Shown here in pieces: positions 3,095 through 26,055 of a DNA stretch of 37,843 nucleotides. Origin of the DNA: a virus. The number at the start of each line of letters is the position of its first letter. The first letter of the stretch is position 1. The notes below the pieces were generated by a model that saw only the letters and a list, made by a program, of their open reading frames with translations, ran no database searches and was not told the origin of the DNA. Position numbers and translations under genes: made by a program. Location: IMG/VR virus record IMGVR_UViG_3300021963_004842, positions 1 through 37,843 of that record; one strand, given 5' to 3'.

Positions 3095-3097
3095 ACT

Positions 3098-6114: not shown

Positions 6115-6115
6115 A

Positions 6116-8674
6116 CTATATTAATTTTTGTATAGTTCCTCTCACTCCTGTTTTAAATTCATAATCATATAATCCGGTTAGTTTTTTTAAGAAATCCCTA
6201 TCACTTGTATCATATGTCAACCCATGTGCTATATTGTGATTTTTCTGAAATCTTTCTTTATTATTTTTATAAAAATCAATAAAAAATTCTTTGTTATCAT
6301 TTATCCGTTTAATTTCTTTAACAAACGCACGTAATCGTTCTTTATGGTCTAATATATTATCATAACTATGGTCTATAACATCATCAAACCAATCAAAATT
6401 ATAACGTTTTTTTATTTCATAAATATGGGTTGGAGATGCCAGTATTAATGGAAATTGAAATGTAACGAATGGTTTAAATGATTTTTCAGTAACATGTATT
6501 TCATTAGTATCAAATTCCGTTTCAGTTGTAATATTTACATACGAATTTTTATAACTTAAATACTCATATGTTCTTCCCCAATCTACATAATCTATATTAT
6601 CATTTCTAAACCAATTTTTATCTTCTTCATAGAAACTTTTCTTTTGGTCTATATTGATAAAATACATCATATCATCAATCATTTTTTCCATATCCTCATC
6701 GGATAAACACGATTGATATAATCCGATTGGATGGCTTGCATATTTTTGTTTAGCATCCCATCCATTTGCTAACGACCAATCCACATTATCCAAAAGACCA
6801 TTTTGTTTTAACAAAACTAATAGAGAATATCTATGTGGCCTAATACGTCTATTATGACATAAGAAGAACTTACCTTCTTTTTCTGTGGTATATTTTAATT
6901 CCGGCATTGCTTCCATCATAGCTAATCCAATATGTGTTCTAACTTTTGATGTAGCATATACATTCATTTGGCTATTTAATTTTGCTTTATAATCTTCTAA
7001 CTTAATATTATTATTTACTATCCAAATTTGATTTTGATTTAAATTATTAAATTTAGTCCAAAAATGAACAAACTTAAAAGTATTAAAACTTTCAAATTCT
7101 TGTTCATTTGCCAAAACAACATTAAAGTTTGGATTTTCTCTCCAACAATCTATAATCTCTTGTGGAAATGGTAAGACTCTATCTCTTATTTTATTACCTA
7201 TTTGATTTGGTGTAAGTGTTACAAAATAATAAAACTTTCTATTCGGAAATTTTGCAACATCATTAATTGGATATCGTTTAATTCTTTCTTCCGGAAATCC
7301 CAAAGACCTAACAAATGATTCTAAATTCATAAGAAATGAATCTGTATAAATTTCTTTACAATTCATATCATATGGCTCTTGCAATGTTTCGTTCCAATTA
7401 TCATAAACTAAGTGTAAATCTACATCATCTATTTCTGGCTTTACTTCACTTAATTTTTTAAAAAACTCATAATCATAATTATTACCCCATCCCTTTAATA
7501 TGTCGTGATTTTTCTGAAATCTTTCTTTATTATTTTTATAAAAATCAATAAAAAATTCTTTGTTATCATTTATACGTTTAACTTCTTCAACGAATGTAAT
7601 TAATCTATCTCTATCATTTTTTATATTATCATAACTATGATTTATAATATCATCAAAGAAATCTAATTCAGGATAAGCTTTTCTAAAATATTCTAAATGA
7701 TGATATGAGGATAAAATCATTGGATATTGAAAATAAAAAAATGGTTTAAATGATTTTTCAGTAATATGAATATCTTCTCCTATAAAATTAGTTTCAGTTG
7801 TAATATTTAAATATGAATTTTCATAACTATTGGGTTCATTTGGCAATCTTTGAACTTCTCTATCATTCAATCCTTCGTATTGAGTTTCATAATTACTTTT
7901 TTTAATATCAATTGAAGTAAAATATTCAATTTCATCTAATAAATTTAATATATCTTCAGAGTTAAAAATAGAAGCAAACTGTGATTTAGCTTCTTTATCA
8001 AAAGACCATCCGTTTACCAACGACCAATTTGTATTGTCTAAAATATTATATTTTTTTAATAAACATAATAATCCATACCGATGAATTCTTGGACTTCTAT
8101 TATGACACAAAAAAAACTGATTCGGAGTTTTTAATGTTCTATATTTTACGGGAGGATGCATGCCCTGAACTGAAGTAGACATTGAACGGCATGTATGAAC
8201 ATTTATACTTGCATTTAATTCTTGCTTATGTTCCAATAATTTTTCACCATTATGAATAAACCAAACTTTTTTAGGATTTATTTTATGTAGTTTTACTATC
8301 TTATCAAGTCTTTCCAAAGACTGTTTTGTTTCAAACTCACATTCATTCATTATAATTAAATGTAAATTATTATTGGTTTTAATCATCCGAATTACCTCTT
8401 TATTCACAGGTAACATATCATTGGCAAAAAAACGATTATTCCAACCATTTCTATTCCATATATGATAATAAAACATTACATTCGGATTATTTGGAACATC
8501 TGATAGTTTCCAATTTTTAATCTTAGTTAGCGCGAATACAGCCATTGGTTGCGTAGATAGCACCCACGTATTCTCATTATCATCTTGATGAACATAATCA
8601 CTTAATCTATTAGGACGAGGTAAATCATTTACTTCATCCCAATCATCATAAACAAAATTTAAAAAGTTATCCAT
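6116..8674 (-). CDS. Tandem-duplicated exostosin/GT10-like putative glycosyltransferase
   Basis: An 852-residue protein made of two homologous halves of about 423 residues. Each half has an acidic N-terminal VYD(D/N)W motif, then FFLCHNR followed by HRY-LL-LLK, and N-W-SL-NGW. Each then has TTET-F-E-IH(I/V)TEKSFKPF (around residues 305 and 728) followed by a near-identical end with RINDNKEFFIDFYKNNKERF. The TEKSFKPF...FQ(F/Y)P(L/M)I pattern resembles the donor-binding segment of exostosin-like and fucosyltransferase (GT10) families, where TEK(I/S) precedes a PV motif. Reaction unknown. The start overlaps the end of the TPP subunit gene by 16 nt. The two halves may be two catalytic sites or one catalytic and one binding half. 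Confidence 0.6.
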   Translation of the reverse strand: MDNFLNFVYDDWDEVNDLPRPNRLSDYVHQDDNENTWVLSTQPMAVFALTKIKNWKLSDVPNNPNVMFYYHIWNRNGWNNRFFANDMLPVNKEVIRMIKTNNNLHLIIMNECEFETKQSLERLDKIVKLHKINPKKVWFIHNGEKLLEHKQELNASINVHTCRSMSTSVQGMHPPVKYRTLKTPNQFFLCHNRSPRIHRYGLLCLLKKYNILDNTNWSLVNGWSFDKEAKSQFASIFNSEDILNLLDEIEYFTSIDIKKSNYETQYEGLNDREVQRLPNEPNSYENSYLNITTETNFIGEDIHITEKSFKPFFYFQYPMILSSYHHLEYFRKAYPELDFFDDIINHSYDNIKNDRDRLITFVEEVKRINDNKEFFIDFYKNNKERFQKNHDILKGWGNNYDYEFFKKLSEVKPEIDDVDLHLVYDNWNETLQEPYDMNCKEIYTDSFLMNLESFVRSLGFPEERIKRYPINDVAKFPNRKFYYFVTLTPNQIGNKIRDRVLPFPQEIIDCWRENPNFNVVLANEQEFESFNTFKFVHFWTKFNNLNQNQIWIVNNNIKLEDYKAKLNSQMNVYATSKVRTHIGLAMMEAMPELKYTTEKEGKFFLCHNRRIRPHRYSLLVLLKQNGLLDNVDWSLANGWDAKQKYASHPIGLYQSCLSDEDMEKMIDDMMYFINIDQKKSFYEEDKNWFRNDNIDYVDWGRTYEYLSYKNSYVNITTETEFDTNEIHVTEKSFKPFVTFQFPLILASPTHIYEIKKRYNFDWFDDVIDHSYDNILDHKERLRAFVKEIKRINDNKEFFIDFYKNNKERFQKNHNIAHGLTYDTSDRDFLKKLTGLYDYEFKTGVRGTIQKLI
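6236..6304. repeat. 69-bp exact direct repeat, copy 1
   Basis: This 69-base stretch is identical to 7505-7573. The spacing of 1269 bases equals 423 codons, so the repeat is in frame within the duplicated glycosyltransferase-like gene and encodes the conserved end of each half (RINDNKEFFIDFYKNNKERF region). The rest of the halves has diverged much more, pointing to local gene conversion or strong constraint. Confidence 0.95.
7505..7573. repeat. 69-bp exact direct repeat, copy 2
   Basis: Second copy of the in-frame repeat described at 6236-6304, encoding the C-terminal end of the first half of the 852-residue protein. Homologous recombination between the copies would delete exactly one half without a frameshift. 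Confidence 0.95.
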
Positions 8675-9291
8675 TTACCAGTTCCGTAATGCGGCCATTT
8701 ATTTTTATAATTATACCAAACCACATTTGCCGGAATATCTCTTTTAACACCACCCCAAGTTTCAATTGTTGGAGTGTTAGTTGATACCCCATTATCTTCA
8801 ACGATAAATATAATAGGCAAGTTTAAATTGGTTGCGTATTTATGCATTTCATAAAATTGTCCTGTTTCAAATGCCATATCACCAACAAAACACCAAACCT
8901 TTTCAGTTCCACCATTACTCTTTATACCCATAGCAGCTCCAACAGCTATTGGAATTATTGATGAAACTATTGCAGATGCATAGAATTTATCTTTTTCACT
9001 TACTATGGTTATTGAACGACCTTCTAATATTTCCTGCTTTAACCAAACCGGAGATACTCCTTTAATTAAAGCATGGTAGTGAGAACGCCAAGTTGAAAAT
9101 ACCCAATCAGAATCATCCATCCTTTTTGATATTTCTAACAATTGTTCTTCATTTCCATTACATAGGTGTACCGGTCCTTGTATTCCTCCTTTTTCCCAAT
9201 GTTCTACTATATTATCTTCAAATGCGATTAACTCATCCGAAGTATATTTAGCTTCTCTAACTATTGGGTACTGTTCTAAATTTTGTATCAT
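8659..9291 (-). CDS. E1-alpha-like thiamine-diphosphate-binding subunit (short)
   Basis: A 210-residue homologue of the TPP-binding alpha subunit of 2-oxoacid dehydrogenases/transketolases. TWRSHYHALIKGV (67-79) matches the E1-alpha YRDHGH-L-GV region. IPIAVGAAMGIK precedes VWCFVGDMAFETGQFYEMHK (132-151), whose GD with N167 in VEDNGVST forms the GDx(n)N magnesium-diphosphate motif. Position three of the motif is Met instead of Gly. Normal E1-alpha is 320-360 residues; this one stops soon after the motif, with a short aromatic tail. It likely pairs with the Pyr-domain protein at 3945-4481. It overlaps the RmlC-like gene by 1 nt and the next gene by 16 nt, in an operon-like array. Confidence 0.78.
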   Translation of the reverse strand: MIQNLEQYPIVREAKYTSDELIAFEDNIVEHWEKGGIQGPVHLCNGNEEQLLEISKRMDDSDWVFSTWRSHYHALIKGVSPVWLKQEILEGRSITIVSEKDKFYASAIVSSIIPIAVGAAMGIKSNGGTEKVWCFVGDMAFETGQFYEMHKYATNLNLPIIFIVEDNGVSTNTPTIETWGGVKRDIPANVVWYNYKNKWPHYGTGKWITF

Positions 9292-9827
9292 TATCTATCT
9301 CTTTTTTGTAAAATTGGGTTATTCGTTGGCCATTCCATTTGGTATTCTTCATCATTCCATTTAACTACACCTTGCTCATCTGCATCCACATAACCATCTT
9401 TGTAGAATAGGTTATAGTGAAACATACAATCGGTTAATGCATAGTGTCCATTAGCAAATCCCGGTGGAACTAATACTTGATTTCTATCTTTTTCGGTTAT
9501 CATAAATGATTCCCAATCGCCAAATGTAGGAGATTCTTTCCTCATATCCAACACAATTAAATAAATATCACCAACTGCTGCTTGAACTAATTTCCAAGTC
9601 TTATTATCATAATGTAATCCTCTCAACACACCTTTGTATGATTTTGAGAATCTACCATGCACCTCATTTCCTTCACCAATCTTAGCCATAACAGGATGTT
9701 CTCCTGAATGAAAAGTTGTAAATATTTCACCCCTATACTCTCTGTAAATTGATGGAGTATATGTTGGCACTTCTAATCCGAATTTTTTTGATGGAGTTAT
9801 TTTAAACTCATCCCATTTATTGCTCAT
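9291..9827 (-). CDS. dTDP-4-dehydrorhamnose 3,5-epimerase-like cupin (RmlC family)
   Basis: A 178-residue cupin with the RmlC signature. KGVLRGLHYD (66-74) gives catalytic His72. Further matches are VGDIYLIVLDMRKESPTFGDW, VPPGFANGHYALTD (120-133), Tyr138 and the C-terminal WNDEEYQMEWP motif with Asp159. The usual GFAHGF is GFANGH: the structural or catalytic His is replaced by Asn, with a His two residues on, as in a divergent subfamily seen in phage and plasmid sugar clusters (from memory). It probably epimerises C3 and/or C5 of a 4-keto NDP-sugar. It lies 1 nt from the upstream epimerase gene and overlaps the TPP subunit by one base. Partial activity (3-epimerase only) is possible. Confidence 0.85.
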   Translation of the reverse strand: MSNKWDEFKITPSKKFGLEVPTYTPSIYREYRGEIFTTFHSGEHPVMAKIGEGNEVHGRFSKSYKGVLRGLHYDNKTWKLVQAAVGDIYLIVLDMRKESPTFGDWESFMITEKDRNQVLVPPGFANGHYALTDCMFHYNLFYKDGYVDADEQGVVKWNDEEYQMEWPTNNPILQKRDR

Positions 9828-9828
9828 A

Positions 9829-10806
9829 TTATGTTTGATTTGCGTAACCTAAAGGAAATCCGTTTCTAAATTCTGCTCCCATTTTTGGAACTATCATCTG
9901 ATATGCCATAATTAATTGCTTAATACCCATATCCAAATCCCACTCCGGTTTCCAACCTGTTGCTTCTATCTTTTCGTTTGATACTATATAATCCCTCTTA
10001 TCCGGGTCCTCATAATAATCATTATACGAAATAGCAAAATCTTTAACGTGTGATTGTATTTTTTCTAATAGTTCTTGCTTAGATAAATTAGCATCACTCA
10101 ATCCTACATTGAATACTTCGCCTTTATATTTATCATAATTTTCTAACATAAATAAAAACGCAGATGCTACATCTTCTATATGAATGAAATTTCTTTTAAA
10201 TAATTTCTCAAATACCACAATATATTTATCAGTAATTGCTTTATAAGTAAAATCATTTACTAATAAATCCGTTCTCATTCGAGGTGATACTCCGAATACA
10301 GTTGCCAATCTAAAAGTAATTGCTGATGTATTTGCTTTAAGAAAGTTTTCAGCTTCACATTTAGTTGAACCATAAACCGATATTGGATTTAATGGAGATT
10401 CTTCAGTACATTCGGTTTGTCCAACCCCAATACCATATCCACTATTTGTATTTGGGTATAATATTTTTTTATCTTTAGCAAATTTTACAATATTAAAAAT
10501 TTGATTAAAGTTGATTTCTTTTGCCAGTTGAGGGTCTGCTGCGCAAGCTGGAAATCCTACGATTGCTGCTAATGGAATAATTATATCAGCCTCTTTACAA
10601 AGTTTTTCTAATAATTCCTCATTACGAACATCTCCGTAAATAAATTTAAAATTTGGATTGGAAGTGTATTGGAGTAAAGATGTTTGATTGAATAATAATT
10701 TATCCAATACAATAACTCCATATCCAGCTTTGAGTAGTTTATCCACAATTACAGACCCCAAATAGCCTGCACCACCCGTAATTAATACTTTTTCGAAAGT
10801 AACCAT
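9829..10806 (-). CDS. NAD-dependent epimerase/dehydratase, canonical extended SDR
   Basis: A 325-residue NDP-sugar epimerase/dehydratase. GGAGYLG (11-17) is the Rossmann motif, with DVRN at 59-62 after a beta strand. IIPLAAIVGFPACAADP is the conserved loop, NSGYG supplies the Ser, and YGSTK (145-149) is a canonical YxxxK. I chose the ATG at 10806 because the upstream in-frame ATG at 10845 would add 13 residues of aromatic, AT-driven sequence before the core; the Rossmann strand begins right after 10806. It is the first gene of the minus arm, directly downstream of an AT-rich divergent promoter region. UDP-glucose 4-epimerase-like activity is one possibility; substrate not established. Confidence 0.85.
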   Translation of the reverse strand: MVTFEKVLITGGAGYLGSVIVDKLLKAGYGVIVLDKLLFNQTSLLQYTSNPNFKFIYGDVRNEELLEKLCKEADIIIPLAAIVGFPACAADPQLAKEINFNQIFNIVKFAKDKKILYPNTNSGYGIGVGQTECTEESPLNPISVYGSTKCEAENFLKANTSAITFRLATVFGVSPRMRTDLLVNDFTYKAITDKYIVVFEKLFKRNFIHIEDVASAFLFMLENYDKYKGEVFNVGLSDANLSKQELLEKIQSHVKDFAISYNDYYEDPDKRDYIVSNEKIEATGWKPEWDLDMGIKQLIMAYQMIVPKMGAEFRNGFPLGYANQT

Positions 10807-10812
10807 ATTGTT

Positions 10813-10845
10813 AATGTTTATATACTTATATATATAATACCACAC
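10813..10845 (-). promoter_or_regulatory. AT-rich putative promoter of the minus-strand sugar operon
   Basis: Read on the minus strand, this stretch contains TATATATAAGTATATAAAC just upstream of the start at 10806. It lies in the only divergent gap of the window, so a promoter for the leftward operon must be near here. The exact element is not certain. Confidence 0.3.
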
Positions 10846-11014: not shown

Positions 11015-11026
11015 GATATTTATATA
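11015..11026 (+). promoter_or_regulatory. GATATTTATA promoter-like element
   Basis: The sequence GATATTTATATA lies 14 nt upstream of the GTG at 11040. The same core ATATTTATA is found ahead of several structural genes (19247, 22520, 30311, 36451). It resembles the T4 late promoter octamer TATAAATA in composition and position, but differs at two central positions. Confidence 0.45.
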
Positions 11027-11039
11027 CAAAAATAGGATA

Positions 11040-14000
11040 GTGGATAAACCAATAATTAAAAAGACGATAGTAATATATTCAGGCCGTTTTCAACCTTTTC
11101 ACAAAGGGCATTACGCTGCATATGAAAAATTGGTGTCAAAGTTTGGCGCCAGTAATGTTTATATTGGTACATCGGATAAAAGTGATGGTGGTAAATCTCC
11201 GTTTAATTTTAAAGAAAAAGTTGTAATAATGGGTAAAATGTTTGGAATCGCTCCAAGCAAAATAGTACAAGTATCAAACCCATATGCACCAAAAGAAATA
11301 CTTTCAAAATTCGATGGTAAAACAACAGCATATATTGCAGCTGTTGGTGATAAAGATGCTAGTAGATTAGCAGGAAAATACTTTAAACCATATAAAGGTA
11401 AGACTGGATATGGTTATGAAGAGATTGGTTATACTTATATTATACCATCTGAATCAAATCCAATTAGTGGAACTGATGTAAGAAAGTGGTTAAGTTCGGA
11501 TGATGCTGAGAAATTATTCTTAAAAGCATATCCAAAATTCGATAAAGAAATTTTTAAAATGATAACTAACAAACTGATTAAAGAGGAACTTGCAAAAGGA
11601 TATCCATCTAAAGAAGATGTTAAGAAAATACAAAAGAAAAACGATAATATTCGTTCAGTAGCAACTACCGATGATTCTTATGTATATGACCCAATAGCTG
11701 AACAAATTGCAAAATTAGTATTTGAAGCTGATAGTTTTATAGATGATTACTTCTTAGAAGAAGAACCAAATCCTATTATGGATAAGGAAATCGATTATAC
11801 TGCAGCTGATGGTAAAAAGAAAAAGATTACTGTTAGGGGAGCATTACGATTACCAAAAGACCACGAAGCACACATCCAAGCAAATAAATTAGTTGGACCG
11901 GATGATGCACCTGCTAACGAACCAAAAGGTAAAGCAGCAACTCAAGCAGCTAAACCTGCTGAACCTGGACAACCTGTTAAGAAAGACCAAACCGCACAAG
12001 GTAAAGCTGATAAAGCAAAAGGTGGAGATGCAGAATCACCAGAAGCACCAAACCCTCAAAAATTAAGTGGAGCAGAATTAAAATCATCAGCCGAAGATAA
12101 AGTTGCGAAGGAAAGAAAAGCTGAAGAATTAAAAACTGCATTAGATAATGAAGTTAAGAGTTTAAATAAAAATGAGCAAGAGTTCATTAAAAACGGAGAA
12201 CATAAGCAAGGTTCAAAGTTTATGAATTCTTTAAAAGAAGGTATAAAGAAAGTTGCAGATACTAAAGTTGTTAAAGCAATTGGGCATGTATTAAAACACA
12301 AAGCAGAAATGATTAGTGGTACATACGATGGTGTTAAAGCATTAGCAAGTGGACAGAAAGTTGGTTCAACTAAAAATAAAGAAACTGGCGAATGGGAATA
12401 CTCCGATGAGAAAAGAAAAGAGCAAGTAAGTCATATGAAGCATTTTGCTAAAGATGTGGCTCTTTTAGTTGGTAGTGTTGCATTAGGTGGCGGATTAGCA
12501 TATGGTGCAAAAGCAATAGCAGGAGGAGCTAGTTTAGGTGGTGCAGCCGCCGCCGTTGGAAAGGGCGCAGTGGGTGCATTTACTCACGGAGTAGGTGGAT
12601 TTGCTGCACATTTAGGTAAAGATACGATTAAGCACGTTGCATTAGAATCATTAGGATTAGGCGGTACACAAGCCGCAGTTGGTGGAGCAGGATTAGCGGG
12701 GGTAACTATGGGATTATTAGAAATTCGTTCCCTAATTACTGAAGAAGAAATGAATAACGAAAGATTTATGCAAAACTTTGTTAGTAAAATGGCGGAGAAG
12801 ATGGAAACTTTCGAAATGAATGATAAACAATTATTAGAATCCGTTAAATCATATAAGCAAGGTAAAAACTTTGGAGATTTAGTTAAAGAAGATATTAATA
12901 TAGATGTTGATAAGGGTGATACCGTCTTAATGGGAAAATTTAAGAACAAAAAAGTTGTTGTTAAAGATTTTGGAAAAGATGACCACGGAATGCCAACAAT
13001 TAATGGTAAAAAGGCAACCACATTTAGATTAGGTGATAAAGGACAAAATGTTTTTAAACAAGATAAGGAAGTAGATGAAGTTGGAGTTGGTGATTGGCAT
13101 TATAAAGCAATTATGTTAATGTGGGATAAAGCCAGTTCATATGGTAGAAAGAAAATTGGAGCAGCAGTTTGTGCAAATCCAAATGCTAATAAGAGAGAAG
13201 TAGAAAGAGAATTACGAAATTTTGGATATAGAGATATAACTGATGCTTCTGTTCAATTGGGATTACTAAAAGAAGAAGTTCCAGCTCCAGAGCAAAAAAA
13301 AAGTAAAGGAAGAATTATAGGCGAATTTATAAAATTTGCAAAAGATAGATTACGATTAATCAGCATACCATTTAATATTAAATTGGTAAAAGATGGCGAA
13401 TTTGCTACAACATTTAAATCATTTGGTGGGTTTGACCCAATCAATAATGATATATTTATATATGTTACCAATCGAAGTACTCCTGATATCCTAAGAACAT
13501 TAGCACATGAATTAGTTCATCTTAAACAAAGACAAGATGGATATATTGGCGGACCTGAAGATGGAGCAACTGGTTCTGATGTTGAAAACGAAGCAAACGC
13601 AGCTGCCGGAATTCTTTTAAGAGATTTTGGTAAACTTAATGGAAATATTTACGAATCAATAAATGAGGGACTAAAATGGGAAACATCTACATTAGAAATG
13701 TGTATGAATAATATGGTGCCGCTTACACTTCCAATAGTAAAACAATTAGTAGAAATTAGGAGAGCAAATGCATTTCATATTACGGATATAGATAACCTTT
13801 CGAAGTTAGTAAGTTTAGAGGGAAAGAGTAAATCTATTTCAGCTTTTAATAAAATGGATTCAGTAGCAGGACCCGCATCTGGTCAGGGAATGTGGACAAA
13901 TGGTGGAATTTTGGTTTTACTTTCTGGAATAGTTCTTGCAGAGAGTATTCACGATTTATGGTCTAAACCTGATAAATCTGGTATAAGATGGATTACCCCT

Positions 14001-16259
14001 GGCAATGCTATGTATGATGAATTTAGTAAAAAATATCAAATCATAGATTATGCTCCCAAATTAAAACCATTAAAAGAAAAATGGGAAAAATCTAAATCCG
14101 ATTTAACAAACCAGGAAAAACAATACTTTATCAAAACCTATATAGATACGGCATATAAGTTGATGATTGATAACAAACAACACTTTCAAAATAAATATTT
14201 AAATTCTAATACTTTGTATTATGATTCAGATTGGAATGAAGTAATCCTTAGTAAAATAAAAGTGGAAAAGATTGCAGTAATCGAAGATAGTGTTGCAATA
14301 GGAGGTGGAAGAACTAACTTACAAGATTACCCATGGGATATACAAAAGCAACACAGAGAATTGGAATTGGCTAAAGGTAGAGCAGAAGCCAATAAATGGT
14401 TAGAACGTCAGGATAATCCGAATGATAAATCAAAGGAAAATATCGATGCTATAAAAAGTAAATACAAAAATGTTGAAATAATTACCGCTAAAGATGTACC
14501 ATCTTTTATTAAAAAAAATGGAGGATACATTAGAGAATCTATAAACGAATTAACTCAAAAAGAACAAAGAATTAAAAACGGAAAACCAGGTAATACATAT
14601 TATGTATATTATAAGGGACAGTTTGCTGTTGATTATGATATGTTTGGAATGAGTGGAGTAGATAGATTTTATAGAGAAAAATTCAAAGTAAGAAAAGTAA
14701 AAGGTTCATCATTTAATCCTGATTTTATAATTATTACTAAAATAGACTATGATAGAAGCCCAAATCATTACGCAAAATTAAAACCATATGTAGATAAGTT
14801 TTGGGATAAATTACAAAGTGAATCGGTAAACGAAGAAACTGCACCTGAAATTATAAAAGATTTAGATAAGGTAAGACACGATTTGATTAAAAAGGTAGAT
14901 GTTTTAATTGCTAAAAAGAAAAAACTTTACTCTAATATTGATATTGAATCACCAATGAGTGCAGAAGAAAAGCAATTAGATAAAGATATACAATCTATAT
15001 TTTCACAAATCCAACAAATAATTCTTAAAAAAAGAACTTTAAAAGAATCTCTTTTAACCGAAGGCGGTGCATACGGACATATGAATCATCCATTTGATAT
15101 TTCAATGAATCTTACATTTGGTGATTTAAAAAAAATTGTTAATAATGCATTAGATGGTAAATTGGGAGTAGTTAGAGAAAAAACCGATGGACAGGCATTA
15201 GCAATCAGTTGGAAGAATGGTAGATTAATTGCCGCTCGTAACAAATCACATTTAGCAAATGGTGGAGCAAACGCTTTAGATATGAGTGCGTTGGCATCTA
15301 AATTTGGAGGAAGAGGCGCATTAAGTGATGCATACAATTTTGCAATGAGAGATTTATCAGCAGCAATTAGTGGATTAGGAGAGAAAGAAAGACAGAGTAT
15401 ATTCAAAGATGGTTCAGCATTTTGTAACTTAGAAGTAATCTATCCACAAAATGCAAATGTAATTCCTTATGGACAATCTTTATTAGTATTTCATAATGTA
15501 GTTGAATTTGATGAAAAGGGTAACGCTATTGGTAGTGTAAAGGGTGCAGAAAGTAAATTAGCATCTATGATTAAACAAACTAATGCACACGTACAATCTC
15601 AATATACATTACAAGGCCCTCCAATTACAAAACTTCCAACCGATGAGAAGTTAAGTTCTCAAAAAGGTAAATTCAACGGAATGTTATCCAAATTACAATC
15701 TGAATTTAATTTATCAGATAAGGCTGGTATAGCTGAATATCACTATTCTTGGTGGATGAAATTAATTAATAATTCTAAAAAGAATTTAACAAAATTAGAA
15801 AAAGAAGGGTTAGCAAGAAGATGGGCATTTGATGATAAAGCATTTGGTATTAAATCAATAACTGATGAAGATGCTAAGAAATGGGCAGATGGAGTAGATA
15901 AAGATGCTAAGGATAAAATAATGAAAGGTAATATTCGTAAATTCGAAGATATCTTTTTAGGCGTTGGAGCTGAAGTATTATCATTTATGAGTTCGGTATT
16001 AACTGCACAGCCAGATAAAGCATTACAATCGATTAAAGCATCATTAGAATCATCTATATCAGATATTCGGAATGGTGGTAGTGAAGCTCAAATAAAAAGA
16101 TTAGAAAAAGAATTACAAAGATTAAATGCTATTGGTGGATTTGAAAAATTAGTTCCAAATGAAGGATTAGTATTTTTCTATAAAGGAAACACATATAAAT
16201 TAACAGGAACATTTGCTCCCTTAAATCAAATTTTAGGAATTTTTAAGTTTGGGAGATAA
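11040..16259 (+). CDS. Giant multidomain polyprotein: nucleotidyltransferase, HELVH metallopeptidase-like and KxDG ligase-like domains
   Basis: A 1739-residue protein with a GTG start. Residues 10-200 form a cytidylyltransferase/NMN-adenylyltransferase-like domain: SGRFQPFHKGH with HxGH at 21-24, and ISGTDVRKW near 142-150. Residues about 250-400 are charged, Ala/Lys-rich linker. Residues about 470-560 are Gly/Ala-rich and hydrophobic. AHELVH (822-827) plus DVENEA downstream is a zinc-metallopeptidase signature. Residues 1342-1739 hold EKTDGQ (Lys1381-Gly1384), motif I of ATP-dependent ligases/nucleotidyltransferases. ESINE (872-876, 1166-1170), ESVNE (1261-1265) and ESLLTE (1336-1341) sit between modules and look like prohead-protease sites. 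It is followed by terminase-region genes. Pieces may be packaged in the capsid; this is inference. Confidence 0.75.
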   Translation: MDKPIIKKTIVIYSGRFQPFHKGHYAAYEKLVSKFGASNVYIGTSDKSDGGKSPFNFKEKVVIMGKMFGIAPSKIVQVSNPYAPKEILSKFDGKTTAYIAAVGDKDASRLAGKYFKPYKGKTGYGYEEIGYTYIIPSESNPISGTDVRKWLSSDDAEKLFLKAYPKFDKEIFKMITNKLIKEELAKGYPSKEDVKKIQKKNDNIRSVATTDDSYVYDPIAEQIAKLVFEADSFIDDYFLEEEPNPIMDKEIDYTAADGKKKKITVRGALRLPKDHEAHIQANKLVGPDDAPANEPKGKAATQAAKPAEPGQPVKKDQTAQGKADKAKGGDAESPEAPNPQKLSGAELKSSAEDKVAKERKAEELKTALDNEVKSLNKNEQEFIKNGEHKQGSKFMNSLKEGIKKVADTKVVKAIGHVLKHKAEMISGTYDGVKALASGQKVGSTKNKETGEWEYSDEKRKEQVSHMKHFAKDVALLVGSVALGGGLAYGAKAIAGGASLGGAAAAVGKGAVGAFTHGVGGFAAHLGKDTIKHVALESLGLGGTQAAVGGAGLAGVTMGLLEIRSLITEEEMNNERFMQNFVSKMAEKMETFEMNDKQLLESVKSYKQGKNFGDLVKEDINIDVDKGDTVLMGKFKNKKVVVKDFGKDDHGMPTINGKKATTFRLGDKGQNVFKQDKEVDEVGVGDWHYKAIMLMWDKASSYGRKKIGAAVCANPNANKREVERELRNFGYRDITDASVQLGLLKEEVPAPEQKKSKGRIIGEFIKFAKDRLRLISIPFNIKLVKDGEFATTFKSFGGFDPINNDIFIYVTNRSTPDILRTLAHELVHLKQRQDGYIGGPEDGATGSDVENEANAAAGILLRDFGKLNGNIYESINEGLKWETSTLEMCMNNMVPLTLPIVKQLVEIRRANAFHITDIDNLSKLVSLEGKSKSISAFNKMDSVAGPASGQGMWTNGGILVLLSGIVLAESIHDLWSKPDKSGIRWITPGNAMYDEFSKKYQIIDYAPKLKPLKEKWEKSKSDLTNQEKQYFIKTYIDTAYKLMIDNKQHFQNKYLNSNTLYYDSDWNEVILSKIKVEKIAVIEDSVAIGGGRTNLQDYPWDIQKQHRELELAKGRAEANKWLERQDNPNDKSKENIDAIKSKYKNVEIITAKDVPSFIKKNGGYIRESINELTQKEQRIKNGKPGNTYYVYYKGQFAVDYDMFGMSGVDRFYREKFKVRKVKGSSFNPDFIIITKIDYDRSPNHYAKLKPYVDKFWDKLQSESVNEETAPEIIKDLDKVRHDLIKKVDVLIAKKKKLYSNIDIESPMSAEEKQLDKDIQSIFSQIQQIILKKRTLKESLLTEGGAYGHMNHPFDISMNLTFGDLKKIVNNALDGKLGVVREKTDGQALAISWKNGRLIAARNKSHLANGGANALDMSALASKFGGRGALSDAYNFAMRDLSAAISGLGEKERQSIFKDGSAFCNLEVIYPQNANVIPYGQSLLVFHNVVEFDEKGNAIGSVKGAESKLASMIKQTNAHVQSQYTLQGPPITKLPTDEKLSSQKGKFNGMLSKLQSEFNLSDKAGIAEYHYSWWMKLINNSKKNLTKLEKEGLARRWAFDDKAFGIKSITDEDAKKWADGVDKDAKDKIMKGNIRKFEDIFLGVGAEVLSFMSSVLTAQPDKALQSIKASLESSISDIRNGGSEAQIKRLEKELQRLNAIGGFEKLVPNEGLVFFYKGNTYKLTGTFAPLNQILGIFKFGR

Positions 16260-16260
16260 A

Positions 16261-16282
16261 TTATATATATATGTATATATAA
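16261..16282 (+). promoter_or_regulatory. AT-only near-palindrome, possible promoter
   Basis: A run TTATATATATATGTATATATAA occupies the gap between the giant gene and the next gene at 16305. It is almost self-complementary and could be a promoter of the TATATA type or a weak AT hairpin. No U-tract follows it, so it is not a standard terminator. Confidence 0.25.
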
Positions 16283-16304
16283 AAGGTTATAAATAAAATA
16301 AATT

Positions 16305-16973
16305 ATGGCAAAGAGAAAAAGCTTTGAAGAAAAAAATAATCATATTCATCCAACCCGTAAACTAATTATAGATACGGTATTTGGTAGAACTGATGATAAT
16401 CAAACAACTTTTGGTTACGAAAAAGAAGGAGAGCAAACGAGAGAAGTTGGAGAAACGTGGGTAGATACCAATGGTAAAGAATGGGAACAAAAGGAAGGTT
16501 ATAAAATAACAGTTTCCCAAATGGATGAGGTTAGGCAATATTTAGATAAATTAAATAATTGTCAATCTGAAGAATGTGATACTATAAAATATAGTAATGC
16601 AGATAAGAAAGTAATTCGTAAAACAGGAATGTGTGTAACTTGTTTAAGAAAGTTTGAACAAAGATTAAAAGATGATGGAACATACCCATTTTATGAAGAT
16701 TATAAAATAACTAATAATCAATTATCATATGTTACGGATTTGAAAGCTCAATTTGAAGAAGGATTGAGAGGAATATCGCAAACAATGGAATTTATTAATG
16801 AAGATGGTACTATTCAAAAATGGCATTATGATATTGATATTGACAAAGTAAAAGAAGATTTACAAAATGATATTAATGGCGCTACCAAAGCAATTGAAGC
16901 TCTGTTGGAAAGGAAAGCGGCATTGGAAGATAAGTTACAAGAGCTTAATCATTTAGAGCTTATAAAAAATTAA
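16305..16973 (+). CDS. Unknown phage protein with Cys4 zinc-ribbon-like motif and C-terminal coiled coil
   Basis: A 222-residue protein not assigned to a family. Cys86/Cys91 (CQSEEC) and Cys110/Cys113 (CVTC) form a plausible zinc-binding knuckle pair. The N-terminus is polar (MAKRKSFEEKNNHIHP). Residues about 180-217 are heptad-like, rich in Leu, Glu and Lys, and probably form a coiled coil. Its position two genes upstream of the terminase large subunit raises the possibility of a small terminase (gp16-like) or a packaging accessory protein, since T4 gp16 is also helical and oligomeric. No motif proves that. It is well expressed-looking: short AT-rich leader and ATGGCA start. Confidence 0.5.
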   Translation: MAKRKSFEEKNNHIHPTRKLIIDTVFGRTDDNQTTFGYEKEGEQTREVGETWVDTNGKEWEQKEGYKITVSQMDEVRQYLDKLNNCQSEECDTIKYSNADKKVIRKTGMCVTCLRKFEQRLKDDGTYPFYEDYKITNNQLSYVTDLKAQFEEGLRGISQTMEFINEDGTIQKWHYDIDIDKVKEDLQNDINGATKAIEALLERKAALEDKLQELNHLELIKN

Positions 16974-16978
16974 AAATT

Positions 16979-17629
16979 ATGAAACAATTATTAAATTTAA
17001 AAAACATAGCAATTGCAGTTTTGATTGCAATAGTAGTTTTTCAACAATGTGGCGGAAATTATAAAAGAAATGCCGAAATTGTAAAAGTGGATGGTAAAAA
17101 GTATGAACTTCTTAAATACGCAATTGATACAGTTGAAATAGTTAAAACTAAAGTAGTAACTAAAAAAGGTGATGATATTTATCACGAAACAATTGTTGAG
17201 AAAGAAGTAATCATCCCAACAATCATTGATACTTTAGCATTATTAAAAGATTACTATTCAAAAGTATTATATAAGGATGTGTTAGTATTGCCTGATTCAT
17301 TAGGAACTGTAGATGTAACGGATACAATATCTCAAAATAAAATATTTGGTAGAACTTTTAATGCAAATATTAAACAAAGAATTATCAAAGAAACTACAAT
17401 TGTAAAAGAATTACCAAAAACCCAAGTATACTATGGAATTACAGGTGGATTTAATAAAGTAGATGTAGTTTCAAATTTAGGAGCTGGTGTATTGATTAAA
17501 ACCAAAGGTGATAAAATATATCAATTAGGTATAGGAGTTGCTAACAAAGTTGGAACTGATGGAACTAATGGAGTATTATCTCCATTTATTGGCGGTGGAG
17601 TGTTTTGGAAGATTAAATTTAAAAAATAA
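16979..17629 (+). CDS. Membrane-anchored protein of unknown function
   Basis: A 216-residue protein with an N-terminal hydrophobic helix NIAIAVLIAIVVFQQCGG (about 9-26), followed by charged beta-rich sequence. VEIVKTKVVTKK and IVEKEVIIPTIID look like alternating strands. The C-terminal half has beta-barrel-like, Gly-rich strands (VYYGITGGF, VLSPFIGGGVFWKIKF). The topology suggests an inner-membrane anchor with a periplasmic domain. Bacteroidota phages often carry similar anchored beta-rich proteins of unknown role, so a lysis/spanin-like or envelope-interacting role is possible. The Cys near the helix end is not preceded by a good lipobox. Its stop overlaps the terminase start (TAATG), implying coupling. 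Confidence 0.6.
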   Translation: MKQLLNLKNIAIAVLIAIVVFQQCGGNYKRNAEIVKVDGKKYELLKYAIDTVEIVKTKVVTKKGDDIYHETIVEKEVIIPTIIDTLALLKDYYSKVLYKDVLVLPDSLGTVDVTDTISQNKIFGRTFNANIKQRIIKETTIVKELPKTQVYYGITGGFNKVDVVSNLGAGVLIKTKGDKIYQLGIGVANKVGTDGTNGVLSPFIGGGVFWKIKFKK

Positions 17630-19239
17630 TGAGTGTACAGGGGCAACCTAAAAAGACACTAAAAGAAATCATCTCCGATGAGTATAAGAAGTGTGCGTTA
17701 GACCCAATATACTTTATGAAAAAGTATTGTATCATTCAACACCCTACTCGTGGAAAGATTCCGTTTCACCTATATCAGTTTCAGGAAAATTGTTTAACAG
17801 ACTTCAAAGATAATCGTTTTAATATTATTCTTAAATCTCGTCAGTTAGGTTTATCAACCTTATCTGCAGGATTTATTTTATGGAAGATGGTATTTAACCA
17901 AGACTATAACGCATTGGTTATTGCAACAAAAGTAACGGTAGCTAAAAACCTTGTAGAAAAGGTAAGAGTTATGCACGACTTACTTCCTATTTGGTTAAGA
18001 GATGGTAGTAATAGTTCAGTAGAAGATAATAAACTTTCCCTTAAATTAAAAAATGGTTCGCAAGTAAAAGCAATCGCAAGTTCTCCAGATGCAGGACGTT
18101 CGGAAGCCCTATCCTTATTAGTTGTGGATGAAGCCGCATTCATTAGAGATATTGATGATATTTGGTTATCAGCACAATCTACATTATCAACAGGTGGTTC
18201 TGCAATCGTATTATCTACTCCAAATGGTGTGGGTAATTGGTTTCATAAAATGTGGGTAGAAGGTGAGAGTGGTGCAAATGGATTTAATAATATAAATTTA
18301 CATTGGACTGTACACCCTGAAAGAAATCAGGAATGGAGAGATGGGCAAACTCGTATTTTGGGAGTAAAGGGGGCATCGCAAGAGTGTGATTGTGACTTTA
18401 TTGGTTCGGGTGATACTGTAATCGACCCAGCATTATTAACTTGGTATAAGGAAACATATGTAATGGAGCCCGTTGAAAAACGAGGTTTTGATGGAAATTT
18501 ATGGGTATGGGAACATCCCAATTATAACAGACAATATATGGTATCCGCTGACGTTGCACGTGGAGATGGAGCCGATTTTTCAACGGTACAAGTAATTGAT
18601 ATTGAAGATAGTTCACAAGTAGCTGAATATAAGGGTAAAGTTGATACAAAAGATTTTGGAAACTTCTTAGTAAGTTTAGCAACTGAATATAATAATGCAT
18701 TATTAGTAGTAGAAAACTCAAATGTAGGTTGGGCAACGATTCAACAAATCATTAATAGAGGATACCCAAATCTATTCTATATGAGTAATGATTTAAAATA
18801 TATTGACACCGAAAGGCAGATGAGTAATAAATTTTATAGAGATGAAAAGCAAATGGTTGCAGGATTTTCTACAACAACCAAAACTCGTCCTCTTATCATA
18901 TCAGCATTAGATACATATATGAAGGATAAAGATATTTTAATTCGTTCTAGTAGATTAATAGATGAGTTATTTACCTTTATATGGAATGGTGGTAAAGCTG
19001 AAGCAATGAAGGGATACAATGATGACTTAACAATGGCATTAGGTATTGGATTATGGGTTCGTAATACAGCATTAAGATTAAGACAAGAAGGTATTGATTT
19101 GACTAAGAGTATGTTGAACTCAACTACTATACAAAATGATACAGGCGTTTATGCTGCAAATTGGCAAAATCAACGTAATCCATATGAAATGCAAATAGGA
19201 AAAGGTGAAGTTGAAAACTTAACTTGGTTGCTAAAGTAA
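17629..19239 (+). CDS. 17: Terminase large subunit (gp17-like)
   Basis: A 536-residue DNA-packaging motor. In the N-terminal ATPase domain the P-loop region is LKSRQLGLST (68-77), a deviant Walker A lacking the usual GKT lysine but with Lys69 and Arg71 just upstream. Walker B is LLVVDEAAF (163-171), with the catalytic Glu168. The coupling motif is VLSTPNG (194-200). The C-terminal RNase H-like nuclease has Asp308 in SADVARGD, Glu362 in VVENSN and Asp465/466 in DDLTMALG. This fits T4 gp17 (610 aa) though slightly shorter. It is preceded by a coupled membrane protein and followed by a module polyprotein. It docks on the portal encoded at 20775. Confidence 0.95.
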   Translation: MSVQGQPKKTLKEIISDEYKKCALDPIYFMKKYCIIQHPTRGKIPFHLYQFQENCLTDFKDNRFNIILKSRQLGLSTLSAGFILWKMVFNQDYNALVIATKVTVAKNLVEKVRVMHDLLPIWLRDGSNSSVEDNKLSLKLKNGSQVKAIASSPDAGRSEALSLLVVDEAAFIRDIDDIWLSAQSTLSTGGSAIVLSTPNGVGNWFHKMWVEGESGANGFNNINLHWTVHPERNQEWRDGQTRILGVKGASQECDCDFIGSGDTVIDPALLTWYKETYVMEPVEKRGFDGNLWVWEHPNYNRQYMVSADVARGDGADFSTVQVIDIEDSSQVAEYKGKVDTKDFGNFLVSLATEYNNALLVVENSNVGWATIQQIINRGYPNLFYMSNDLKYIDTERQMSNKFYRDEKQMVAGFSTTTKTRPLIISALDTYMKDKDILIRSSRLIDELFTFIWNGGKAEAMKGYNDDLTMALGIGLWVRNTALRLRQEGIDLTKSMLNSTTIQNDTGVYAANWQNQRNPYEMQIGKGEVENLTWLLK

Positions 19240-19246
19240 TTTTTTT

Positions 19247-19256
19247 ATATTTATAT
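19247..19256 (+). promoter_or_regulatory. ATATTTATAT promoter-like element
   Basis: ATATTTATAT after a T-run lies 16 nt upstream of the ATG at 19273. Same core as at 11015, 22520 and 30311, all at a short fixed distance from a start codon. Confidence 0.45.
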
Positions 19257-19272
19257 GTTGAAACTCTTATAA

Positions 19273-20718
19273 ATGAACGAAGATTTAGATAAATGGTTTA
19301 AAGAAAAATGGGTAAACATCGGCAAAAAAGTTGATGGCAAACACCCACCATGTGGAACTTCGGGAGAAAAAAGAGGTTATGCAAAATGTGTTCCCGCCGC
19401 AAAAGCTGCCGGAATGAGTAAAAAAGAAAAAGAAAGTGCAACTCAAAGAAAAAGAGCTGCACAAAATGATGCAGGAAGAGGTGGTAAAGATAGTAGTGGA
19501 CAAGGTAAGAAACCAATAAATGTTTCTACTAAACCAAAAAATGAAGAGTGGAGTGATAAATATAAAAGTAGTATAGATTGTAATAATCCAAAAGGTTTCT
19601 CTCAAAAGGCACATTGTCAAGGAAAGAAAAAAAATGAAAATATGAATATAGAAGAAAGACTAAATTTATTTTTAGAAAAGAATTGTCCAACTGACCCAGG
19701 TAAGTGGTCTGCATCTAAAGCAGCCGCAAAATCTAAATTTGATGTATATCCATCAGCATACGCAAATGGATGGGCTGCAAAAAATTATAAAGGTAAAGGT
19801 GGTGGATGGAAAACTTGTAGTGAAAATGTAGTAAACGAAGATAATACAGCATTTGAAACATTAATGTTAATTAGAAATTTAGAACAAACAAATAAACTAT
19901 TAGCACAAGACCTTAAAACAAGCAAACGATTACCTAACGATAAAAAAGAAAATATCAAAAAATCTATTGTAGTAAATCAAGGTTTAATAAATTACTATAA
20001 AGAAACCTATAAAAATCTTAAAAATAACGAATCAGTAAACGAAGCACCAATTCCTATCAAAGATGGTAAATATCATTTTTATTATAAAGATGGTGTAGGA
20101 TATTTAGAATTTAATGGTAAAAAAATATCTTCGGGTGATTATGATATGGAAGATGGTAGTAATTCATATTGGATGAGTCATTCTTCTTTTAAAGGAAGTC
20201 AAAAAGCATTTAAAACAGGTAAAGATATAGTAAACTATTTTAAATCAAAAAAAATTACAACCGAATCAGTAAACGAAGCTTGCTGGGATGGATATAAACA
20301 AGTTGGTGGTAAAATGAAAAATGGCAAGATGGTGCCAAATTGTGTTCCTATAAAAGAAAATCATATAGATACAGATTATGATGAATTGGATGTAGAACCA
20401 GAAGAAATTGAAGATTTTATTGAATTTTTAAAAGCATATAAAAACACTTTAGCTGAAGCCAATTGTGGTTGTGTTTATGAAGCTGAATATCAGGGTAGAG
20501 AAGTTAAGTTGGGTAAACCAATGCAAGGTGATGTTAAGAAATTCAAAGTGTATGTAAAAAATCCTGCAGGCAAGGTAGTTAAGGTAAACTTTGGCCAAAA
20601 AGGAATGAAAATTAGAAAATCAAACCCCGCTGCTAGAAAATCATTTAGAGCAAGAATGAATTGTGATAACCCAGGTCCAAGAACAAAAGCAAACTATTGG
20701 AGTTGTAGAAAATGGTAA
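19273..20718 (+). CDS. Modular prohead polyprotein built from small Cys/Lys-rich phage modules
   Basis: A 481-residue protein made of small units. Residues 1-90 resemble a DUF5872-like module (KWFKEKWVNIG, GYAKCVPAAKAA). Residues 100-121 carry DCNNPKGFSQKAHCQGKKK. Residues 138-182 carry CPTDPGKWSASKAAAK and FDVYPSAYANGWAAK. Residues 190-252 are helical, 258-329 beta-rich, 336-361 carry CWDGYKQ...VPNCVP, and 406-481 are a basic module ending NCDNPGPRTK-YWSC. Units are separated by ENVVNE (184-189) and ESVNE (253-257, 331-335), which look like prohead-protease sites. These modules recur in T4-like phages as separate units (from memory). It is probably cleaved into basic peptides packaged with DNA, like T4 internal proteins. 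This is inference. Confidence 0.7.
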   Translation: MNEDLDKWFKEKWVNIGKKVDGKHPPCGTSGEKRGYAKCVPAAKAAGMSKKEKESATQRKRAAQNDAGRGGKDSSGQGKKPINVSTKPKNEEWSDKYKSSIDCNNPKGFSQKAHCQGKKKNENMNIEERLNLFLEKNCPTDPGKWSASKAAAKSKFDVYPSAYANGWAAKNYKGKGGGWKTCSENVVNEDNTAFETLMLIRNLEQTNKLLAQDLKTSKRLPNDKKENIKKSIVVNQGLINYYKETYKNLKNNESVNEAPIPIKDGKYHFYYKDGVGYLEFNGKKISSGDYDMEDGSNSYWMSHSSFKGSQKAFKTGKDIVNYFKSKKITTESVNEACWDGYKQVGGKMKNGKMVPNCVPIKENHIDTDYDELDVEPEEIEDFIEFLKAYKNTLAEANCGCVYEAEYQGREVKLGKPMQGDVKKFKVYVKNPAGKVVKVNFGQKGMKIRKSNPAARKSFRARMNCDNPGPRTKANYWSCRKW

Positions 20719-22519: not shown

Positions 22520-22529
22520 ATATTTATAT
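22520..22529 (+). promoter_or_regulatory. ATATTTATAT promoter-like element
   Basis: ATATTTATAT in the 46-nt gap after the portal gene, 19 nt upstream of the ATG at 22549. It belongs to the repeated element set described at 11015. Confidence 0.45.
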
Positions 22530-23707: not shown

Positions 23708-24475
23708 ATGCCAGCACAATCCAAAGCACAACAAAAATTTATGGGAATGGTTCATGCTACTCAAAAGGGTGATATGGAATCTCCATCTCCAGAAGTTAGT
23801 AAAGCAGCAGACTCAATGAGTGATAAAGATGCTAAAGATTTTGCATCAACATCTCATAAAGGGTTGCCTGATAAAATAAAAGAAATGGTATTGGCTGAAT
23901 TACGTTCAGTAAGAGCCATTCAAACGGATTACGCTAAAACCTTAGATGCTATTCAGCAAAACTTAGAAGGATATAAAAAATCTAAAGGAACTCCAAACGA
24001 AAATCAATATGTACAAAAACTTAAAGCACTAACTGCACAAAAGAAAAAACTTTCCGCAGAATTAGATGCAAAAGTTAGTGGTATGTATAAAGATGCTGAA
24101 TTAAAAGTTGATGAAATGAGTACTTCAGCAGCAGCCGGTCCATATAATACACCATTTGCGTTTGGTAAAGGTGAAGATGAAAAATCAAAAGGTAAAAGAC
24201 AAGCTGATTTAACAGGATATTCAGTAGTTAAAGAAAATCGTTGGTTAGAATTAAAAAGAGATGAATCAACTGCACAATCTAAGATTGGTAGAGGTATATC
24301 TAATATCAATAAACAATTAGCAGAAATGGAAAGATTTCTCAATTGGTATGGTAAAATTAAGAACGAAAGTGGAGTAGATAATAAAAGCTATTGGAAAAGA
24401 ACAAATAGTCATATTTATAGTATAAAGGAACGATTACTAAAATTAGACCAAAAAATAAGACAAATTTCAGAATAA
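23708..24475 (+). CDS. DUF3008-type modular prohead protein
   Basis: A 255-residue modular protein. Residues 1-60 fit the DUF3008 pattern: MPAQSKAQQKFMGMVHA then GDMESPSPEV, SMSDKDAKDFAST, HKGLPDK. A helical segment (65-135) follows. VDEMSTSAAAGPYNTPFAF (about 136-154) is another small module seen in phage virion proteins. The C-terminal 75 residues are a helical bundle ending LDQKIRQISE. VDEM and LAEL are possible (V/L)xE protease sites. Its final stop overlaps the next start (TAATGA), indicating coupling. Most likely an internal or core protein processed in the prohead; individual functions unknown. Confidence 0.6.
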   Translation: MPAQSKAQQKFMGMVHATQKGDMESPSPEVSKAADSMSDKDAKDFASTSHKGLPDKIKEMVLAELRSVRAIQTDYAKTLDAIQQNLEGYKKSKGTPNENQYVQKLKALTAQKKKLSAELDAKVSGMYKDAELKVDEMSTSAAAGPYNTPFAFGKGEDEKSKGKRQADLTGYSVVKENRWLELKRDESTAQSKIGRGISNINKQLAEMERFLNWYGKIKNESGVDNKSYWKRTNSHIYSIKERLLKLDQKIRQISE

Positions 24476-25796: not shown

Positions 25797-25797
25797 T

Positions 25798-26052: not shown

Positions 26053-26055
26053 CAT

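Follow-up and report, generated by a model that had tools for sequence, protein, structure and literature searches.

The stretch of DNA analyzed here, hereafter the window, comprises 37,843 bases, forms a virus record of its own (IMG/VR record IMGVR_UViG_3300021963_004842) and is a fragment of a T4-like phage. It carries two genes, at 11040 and 19273, whose products of 1739 and 481 amino acids (aa) appear to be strings of separate modules, or beads, joined at short recurrent motifs that end in glutamate. The giant open reading frame (ORF) lies upstream of the terminase, portal, protease and capsid genes, and the 481-aa ORF is located between terminase and portal. The portal gene was identified by family search (Portal_T4, E 8.7e-73), and ORF 17629 was judged by eye to be the large terminase. 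The features that concern the two proteins and their proposed processing are as follows, where partner numbers refer to the clusters of homology breakpoints described below.

11040–16259, + strand: giant gene, proposed polyprotein, 1739 aa, GTG start
11040–11585, + strand: module 1 (aa 1–182), HIGH-type nucleotidyltransferase by sequence (CTP_transf_like / phage cytidyltransferase; PF01467, phrog_395); right border IKE 180–182, 12 breakpoint partners
11586–12890, + strand: aa 183–617, glycine/alanine-rich hydrophobic stretch, not split into modules; right border VKE 615–617, 6 partners
12891–13079, + strand: module 5 (aa 618–680), small domain; right border VDE 678–680, 30 partners
13080–13274, + strand: module 6 (aa 681–745); right border LKE 743–745
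13275–13667, + strand: module 7 (aa 746–876), zincin-like HExxH metallopeptidase (phrog_87), C-terminal NIYESINE
13653–13667, + strand: ESINE border 872–876, 29 partners
13668–14549, + strand: module 8 (aa 877–1170), candidate ADP-ribosyltransferase-like fold from predicted-structure comparison, C-terminal YIRESINE
14535–14549, + strand: ESINE border 1166–1170, 6 partners
14550–14834, + strand: module 9 (aa 1171–1265), C-terminal LQSESVNE
14820–14834, + strand: ESVNE border 1261–1265, 4 partners
14835–15062, + strand: module 10 (aa 1266–1341), charged, coiled-coil-like by eye, C-terminal LKESLLTE
15045–15062, + strand: ESLLTE border 1336–1341, 35 partners
15063–16256, + strand: module 11 (aa 1342–1739), probable RNA-ligase-like covalent nucleotidyltransferase from conserved motifs and predicted structure
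19273–20718, + strand: second proposed polyprotein gene, 481 aa, with Cys- and Lys-rich beads (DLDKW, CWDGYK, AEYQGR, others)
19822–19839, + strand: ENVVNE border 184–189 of the 481-aa protein, 13 partners at border 189
20029–20043, + strand: ESVNE border 253–257 of the 481-aa protein, placed by motif position
20263–20277, + strand: ESVNE border 331–335 of the 481-aa protein, 17 partners at border 335
20473–20481, + strand: VYE border 401–403 of the 481-aa protein, before the AEYQGR module, from left-flank counts
23708–24475, + strand: third bead-carrying gene, DUF3008 N-terminus (PF11450, E 1.5e-6), VVKE-NRWLEL joint at 24224–24235
25206–25796, + strand: prohead core protease, Peptidase_S77, gp21-like (PF03420, E 9e-30; second search 1.4e-31), the proposed cutter
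28559–30184, + strand: major capsid protein, assigned by position, relatives and eye; LDE (aa 57–59) at the proposed propeptide junction

An earlier note on this DNA, made from its letters alone, had pointed to E-S-(I/V)-N-E linkers between unrelated modules, to DNA shared by two of them and to a gp21 homolog at 25206. The ESINE, ESVNE and ESLLTE motifs of the giant protein and the ENVVNE and ESVNE motifs of the 481-aa protein indeed lie at the residues listed above, the ORF at 25206 is a Peptidase_S77, and the shared DNA is an 18-mer, CGAATCAGTAAACGAAGC, found on the + strand at 20028 and 20262, with both copies inside the 481-aa gene. ES[IV]NE occurs five times in the two proteins, compared with a mean of 0.01 and a maximum of 1 in 1000 shuffles, and is absent from the other 35 listed ORFs of the window. 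The shorter [ILV]NE is not enriched in those 35 ORFs (10 seen, 9.78 expected), which places the signal in the position of the motif at borders. The linker consensus itself proved too narrow, as further borders carry IKE, VKE, VDE and LKE in the giant protein and VYE in the 481-aa protein. The joints fit the broader pattern [I/L/V/M]-x-E (hereafter [ILVM]xE), which, in terms of sequence, is close to the published rule for T4 gp21, a protease that cuts after L/I-x-E according to passages of PMC9026906.

Relatives of the giant protein were detected at 33 loci in a scan of viral contigs, and the 481-aa family comprised 591 relatives, of which the best 80 were kept; the loci thus represent the best relatives only (best 80 of 582 and best 80 of 591). 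For each module, unique 14-aa left flanks were scored for [ILVM]xE, with random windows in the same ORFs as the control. Control rates were 0.10–0.22, apart from the zincin module, for which a wider 26-aa window was used (37/38 flanks with the motif, control 0.28). The motif precedes the ligase-like module 11 in 96/98 flanks drawn from about 35 upstream contexts, module 10 in 18/20 (about 11 contexts), module 9 in 9/9 (about 7) and module 8 in 15/15 (about 10). The same holds for the small beads CWDGY (52/52, 7 contexts), DLDKW (18/20, 11 contexts) and AEYQGR (68/68, 4 contexts, one of them holding 63). In a separate listing, [ILVM]xE stands immediately before the ligase in 113 of 114 distinct contexts. 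Residue preferences at the joints are informative only for the variation at P2 and P1', as the borders were picked by motif and P3 and P1 are unusable.

Borders were also located without predefined modules, using 215 ORFs that bear any module and measure 250 aa or more, from which repeated 16-mers were removed. Of the 2,930 sharp ends of pairwise homology, 75.5% have an [ILVM]xE within 6 aa, compared with 10.4% at 21–34 aa, an approximately 7-fold enrichment. Control motifs consisting of [ILVM]x followed by D, K, N, S, T, Q, G or A gave ratios of 0.28–1.21, none of them enriched, and [DNKQ]-x-E reached 1.25-fold. The inverted E-x-[ILVM] is 5.1-fold enriched, as expected, since ES[IV]NE includes this pattern. 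All nine breakpoint clusters with at least three partners in the two window proteins have [ILVM]xE at or within 8 aa, so the comparison of homologs that the earlier note had set as its check of motifs at module borders did not refute it. No cluster of at least three partners was found at LKE 743–745, the right border of module 6, or at ESVNE 253–257, whose two flanking beads matched nothing else among the ORFs of the loci (1 match each).

Relatives of the giant protein that are not cut by a contig end measure 1291–1980 aa from stop to stop, and this range arises from the loss, gain or movement of whole modules. The segment between the zincin HExxH and the start of the ligase varies in this way: in locus L014, NIYES leads directly to LLTE-GGAYGHM with no bead between, while L001 and L016 hold one bead (SINE-LTQ...) followed by SVNK-SLIME-GG and SVNE-SLIME-GG, respectively. 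The window has three beads there (SINE-GLKWE..., SINE-LTQ... and SVNE-ETAPE...), and L012 has more, and different, ones. The bead resembling ADP-ribosyltransferases (ARTs) is preceded by MVNE, TINE, TLNE or SINE, depending on its neighbor. Module 5 has 103 matches among the ORFs of the loci, module 9 is also found in other bead proteins, and relatives of gene 23708 bear beads at similar joints (module 10 in L095; DUF3008 with module 9 in L215). Aligned across these loci, the beads are shown to be exchangeable cassettes whose joints keep the motif beside many different neighbors.

Two further arrangements were observed among the relatives. In L089 (ORF from 2698), L110 (ORF from 3) and L059 (ORF from 1), the enzyme order is reversed, with a ligase-like bead followed by a nucleotidyltransferase bead. 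Another bead protein, at 1627–3516 of L219, contains DUF5661 (E 4e-14) and, below its cut-off, a stretch resembling IF2_N, amid [ILV]xE sites.

Beads also occur as single genes, many of them behind a short leader peptide. The ligase bead of L113, an uncultured phage, is its own gene behind MKFLKSYEEFLNENLILE, followed by GGSYGHL, and the ART-like bead of L196 is a 277-aa gene behind MKLAQLLKE, followed by IKWQ and surrounded by metabolic, not head, genes. The zincin bead stands alone in Synechococcus phage B23 (MNYKQFLRE...) and in S-SRM01, where the copy has no evident leader. Single CWDGYK beads lie behind MKLRDLLKE (L126) or MKLINLIPLKE, and the DLDKW bead of L079 lies behind MIRLKKIVKE. 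In L187, a complete leader, MIRLKKLLNE, is embedded in a polyprotein before LLTE-GGAYGHM, which looks as if a gene with its own leader had been fused in. Relatives present a series at the first bead: MKGLAKFLVETILGE then A..., MNLINE-VDKP..., MNLNE-VDKP... and finally the leaderless lineage of the window. A T4-type N-terminal leader ending in a cut site is absent from the window's giant protein, and ORF 19273 starts with MNE only. In T4, the first 10 residues of IPIII suffice for capsid targeting, as stated in passages of PMC9026906.

Leader-like starts were also seen among the small core-region ORFs at 24475–26532, with MKIAQLKELVKQVVKE at 24475, MAKLINLIPGRQINVKE at 25798 and MIRLKDLLNE at 26056. 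This is only a hint that these three ORFs may be further head-targeted proteins, and an LxE within 20 residues is found in some unrelated ORFs as well.

As in the window, an S77 protease is encoded in 15 of the 16 large related records bearing these genes. For the small beads, we compared 22 named phages out of 43 with a match, hand-picked partly by the expected presence or absence of the protease; 8 carry S77, and in 14 none was detected. Where S77 is present, beads are mostly preceded by [ILVM]xE, whereas in phages without detected S77 they mostly begin at or near Met (MAKYQGR..., MSLKKWFNEKW...) and the site is absent. By a scripted rule, the site was found in 9/17 rows from the 8 phages with S77 and in 1/22 rows from the 14 without (Fisher P 0.0009; the rows are not independent, and the compared region is nearly the same in Aegir and Kolga). 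In several rows with S77, the site lies just beyond the stretch that the script covered (e.g. MNE-GWSDKY and MKE-DLRDWF), and an unblinded count by eye gave 15/17 compared with 1/22, the two misses being S-CAM9 (IAKE) and Melnitz-3 (MFGEEDP). The link between the protease and the site that precedes the beads, as read from these sequences, is a correlation, since phage type differs between the groups as well. In the window and 13 closer relatives, the capsid protein keeps L[LIV][DS]E where the propeptide junction is proposed; in C48C1 and HTVC008M, two more distant aligned phages, the capsid protein does not align at the L-x-E column.

Profile searches and predicted structures suggest what several beads may be. 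Module 1 matches PF01467 (E 5.5e-6, above the cut-off) and phrog_395 (E 4.9e-14) and is, on this sequence evidence, a HIGH-type nucleotidyltransferase; the following stretch, aa 183–617, gave no convincing match in Pfam or PHROGs. Module 7 matches the phrog_87 metallo-protease (E 2.3e-5) and keeps HExxH in 9/9 aligned rows; it has no match among PDB sequences. In module 11, KxDG, EGxVF and K-L-T-G are present in 14/14 rows, and across 30 rows KxDG is kept in all and the EG-V-F and K-T-G positions in at least 90%. We take KxDG to be the nucleotidyl motif, EGxVF motif IV and the K-containing motif V. The AlphaFold model of module 11 has a predicted local distance difference test score (pLDDT) of 86.2. 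Ten of its best 11 Foldseek rows are RNA ligases and the other is a putative DNA ligase (E 0.02–0.3, none reaching 0.001; TM-scores 0.20–0.28). VIA-align superposes the model on T4 RNA ligase 1 (Rnl1) with a Z of 8.1 (181 residues aligned; root-mean-square deviation, rmsd, 4.0), and all 37 rows with Z of at least 5.5 are RNA, tRNA or DNA ligases. The PHROG RNA ligase match is weak (E 0.084), and PDB sequences returned nothing useful. Module 11 is thus predicted to be, and probably is, an RNA-ligase-like covalent nucleotidyltransferase.

In module 8, the pattern H-x-T-D, S-I-S and E, of which H, S and E are invariant, led us to suspect an ART, and VIA-align was run afterwards on its model (pLDDT 74.5). 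A tRNA 2'-phosphotransferase came out on top (Z 6.2, 95 aligned, rmsd 3.8), followed by CteC and DarT (Z 4.6) and further ART-fold enzymes, with unrelated rows from about rank 16; on the tool's own scale, the Z ranges of modules 8 and 11 are middling. Foldseek found no significant match for module 8, and neither hidden Markov model (HMM) nor PDB-sequence searches gave support. These results lend weak to moderate support to a candidate ART-like fold in the predicted model. A weak HMM match of module 8 to DndB (E 0.02) was judged to be chance. The giant chain holds several unrelated enzyme domains of the kind met in polyvalent proteins, namely a nucleotidyltransferase and a zincin by profile and a ligase by motifs.

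Upstream of the giant gene, at 488–10845, lies a block of sugar and surface genes. Its ORFs at 488 and 2120 were judged by eye to be epimerase-like, and it also includes a 2OG-Fe(II) oxygenase at 1395–2123 (E 2.3e-10), half of an E1/thiamine pyrophosphate (TPP) enzyme at 8659–9291 (E 1.2e-18) and a dTDP-4-dehydrorhamnose 3,5-epimerase at 9291–9827 (E 3.1e-32). The word TATTTATA is found at 11017–11024, 19248–19255 and 22521–22528, beginning 23, 25 and 28 bases upstream of the ORF starts at 11040, 19273 and 22549, and these copies are possible late promoters. Over the whole window the word is not significantly frequent (17 matches compared with 11.6 expected; 8/100 shuffles had as many).

Given these properties, we propose, with a probability of roughly 0.77, that genes 11040 and 19273 encode head polyproteins that are cut by the S77 prohead protease and whose beads are packaged as head cargo. 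We infer cutting, packaging and injection from sequence and by analogy with T4. Gene 23708, judged from its relatives, may be a head polyprotein of the same kind. The chains would be synthesized late and enter the prohead core, where the protease encoded at 25206 would cut after the border Glu, as T4 gp21 does at L/I-x-E. This would free a nucleotidyltransferase, a zincin, an ART-like domain, an RNA-ligase-like domain and small Cys/Lys-rich beads; these would remain with the DNA and reach the cell at infection, where they probably would serve in RNA repair, in altering host molecules or in DNA protection. The weakest step is the prohead entry of the leaderless giant protein, for which an internal linker acting as a targeting peptide, or another bead binding the core, are guesses. 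The earlier note had likewise read these genes as polyproteins, a view that the sequence comparisons support. Of the small basic or enzymatic products that it expected, not all would be small and basic; four resemble enzymes or enzyme folds.

A different account would treat the motifs as recombination joints only, that is, as conserved DNA for cassette swaps without proteolysis. Modules do move, some joints share DNA (the 18-mer found twice), and the commonest ES[IVL]NE spellings recur, with three 15-mers found 5 times each among 30 joints. However, these 30 joints are written in 14 different 15-mers, and many joints retain only hydrophobic-x-Glu (LHE, LCE, VSE, IIAE, LLTE). Single genes, which need no joint, keep the site in their leader, and most beads lack it in phages without detected S77; we consider this account quite unlikely. 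Also unlikely is a reading in which cutting does occur at the sites but yields scaffold or propeptide material that is degraded and expelled, instead of cargo. Passages of PMC9026906 describe T4 gp22 and other core proteins being cut into several fragments, and passages of PMC10052503 describe long SPN3US propeptides that are cut several times and mostly lost. Against this reading, enzyme motifs are kept over long distances here (ligase 14/14, HExxH 9/9, and H, S and E invariant in the ART-like bead), and identical bead types exist elsewhere as single genes.

The zincin module could itself cut the polyprotein, since the window and many relatives contain it and zincin-like peptidase processing is proposed for polyvalent proteins in passages of PMC5512222. 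Yet the ligase joint is kept in 28/30 distinct borders between nucleotidyltransferase and ligase from ORFs without a zincin match (1/30 has an HExxH elsewhere), the 481-aa protein has no HExxH, the joints fit the gp21 rule, and the zincin is a single gene in two cyanophages. We regard self-cutting as improbable. Finally, LxE is common in Lys/Glu-rich proteins, and the two genes might encode ordinary multidomain proteins with flexible linkers that carry the motif by chance. The breakpoint test and its control motifs already contradict this, as do the left flanks, the window clusters and the shuffles, and we give it hardly any credence.

Several observations weigh against processing of these chains by the prohead protease. 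No S77 turned up in the L196 record (30 kb) or in one further record of 83 kb, both of which may be fragments, and CRP-6, in which no S77 was detected, has LEE before a weakly aligned module. The joints before modules 5 and 6 are looser, with [ILVM]xE in 33/50 flanks (15 contexts, control 0.10) and 15/26 (9 contexts, control 0.12), respectively, and some read YNE or FE. The first module is preceded by the motif in only 47/66 cases (18 contexts). The sole exception among the 114 ligase contexts, L212 near 5470, reads LLTC-GGAYGHL, with Cys for Glu; the ligase of L112 has no site, and one joint in L001 reads SVNK. Unlike many relatives, the window's giant protein has no N-terminal leader; it starts with MDKPIIKK at the residue after the joint. 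Inside six window modules, [ILVM]xE occurs at a near-chance rate (9 seen, 13.0 expected), so folding would have to protect these internal sites; the idea that selection has depleted the motif within modules was set aside as weak. The loci come from lists of best relatives, the 2,930 breakpoints derive from related sequences and are not independent, and the fold matches are moderate. A first test on raw BLAST ends found [ILV]xE only about 2-fold enriched (2.28 in the giant family, where it was the best motif), and in the 481-aa family (tolerance 4) motifs ending in T, S and Y reached 4.0, 2.7 and 2.4 compared with 2.0 for E; this test was noisy and was superseded by the sharp-end test on 215 ORFs.

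Beyond the window, we suggest tentatively, and with less than even confidence, that there is a class of T4-like aquatic phages with an evolvable polyprotein cargo system. Such phages would share a pool of beads flanked by protease sites, arranged in many orders and encoded in at least three late genes or in leader-borne single genes. One chain would load the head with a stoichiometric kit (an RNA ligase, an ART/KptA-like enzyme, a NAD- or nucleotide-handling transferase, a zincin and small basic beads), and this kit would subsequently reach the host, perhaps for RNA repair and host takeover. If prohead processing is correct, DNA phages would use the polyprotein strategy of RNA viruses with cutting confined to the prohead interior, which would explain the giant, variable hypothetical proteins of aquatic T4-like phages. 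It would also provide a rule, [ILVM]xE at homology breakpoints, by which to split these proteins into domains that can be tested. A further prediction would be a natural cassette system through which phage heads are loaded with proteins.

In eukaryotic RNA viruses, a viral protease cleaves a single polyprotein chain at short recurring sites. Protease and particles are unrelated to those considered here, where cutting would occur inside a DNA-phage prohead. Among head-packaged phage proteins, we know of no repeated joints in the P1 Dar proteins (DarA, DarB and DdrB). According to passages of PMC12810830 and PMC9024508, these are alike in being packaged in the head and co-injected, with DarA trimmed by the prohead protease and DarB carrying a targeting sequence, but they are encoded by separate genes. 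The T4 internal proteins (IPI–III and Alt) and core proteins, as described in parts of PMC9026906, share the S77 protease, cutting C-terminal to Glu, short leaders and varied cargo, including Alt, a packaged ADP-ribosyltransferase cut by gp21. In T4, however, each cargo has its own gene and one leader, and Alt is also trimmed C-terminally, whereas here many beads share a chain, the site lies at the joints and the giant protein is leaderless. Passages of PMC9503650 give evidence for packaged ARTs and discuss RNA repair with KptA and RNA ligases. In giant phages, many head proteins (the substrates of phiKZ gp175 and SPN3US gp245) are likewise cut after Glu by a gp21-like protease, with several cuts per propeptide, but passages of PMC10052503 and PMC9026906 describe propeptide removal and no string of separate folded products.

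The polyvalent proteins that Iyer et al. 2017 (PMC5512222) describe from phages and conjugative elements are similarly large and multidomain, combine zincin, ART and nucleic-acid enzymes, are often encoded near phage virion genes and have been likened to RNA-virus polyproteins. Their release is ascribed to embedded zincins, whereas the joints described here fit the prohead protease even in zincin-free chains, and the passages of that account describe no prohead-protease joints. The titles, abstract openings and passages covered by our literature search likewise describe no prohead-processed string of different products. The T4, P1 Dar, giant-phage and polyvalent systems therefore each share part of the arrangement, and a string of different products with prohead-protease joints appears to be its new element.

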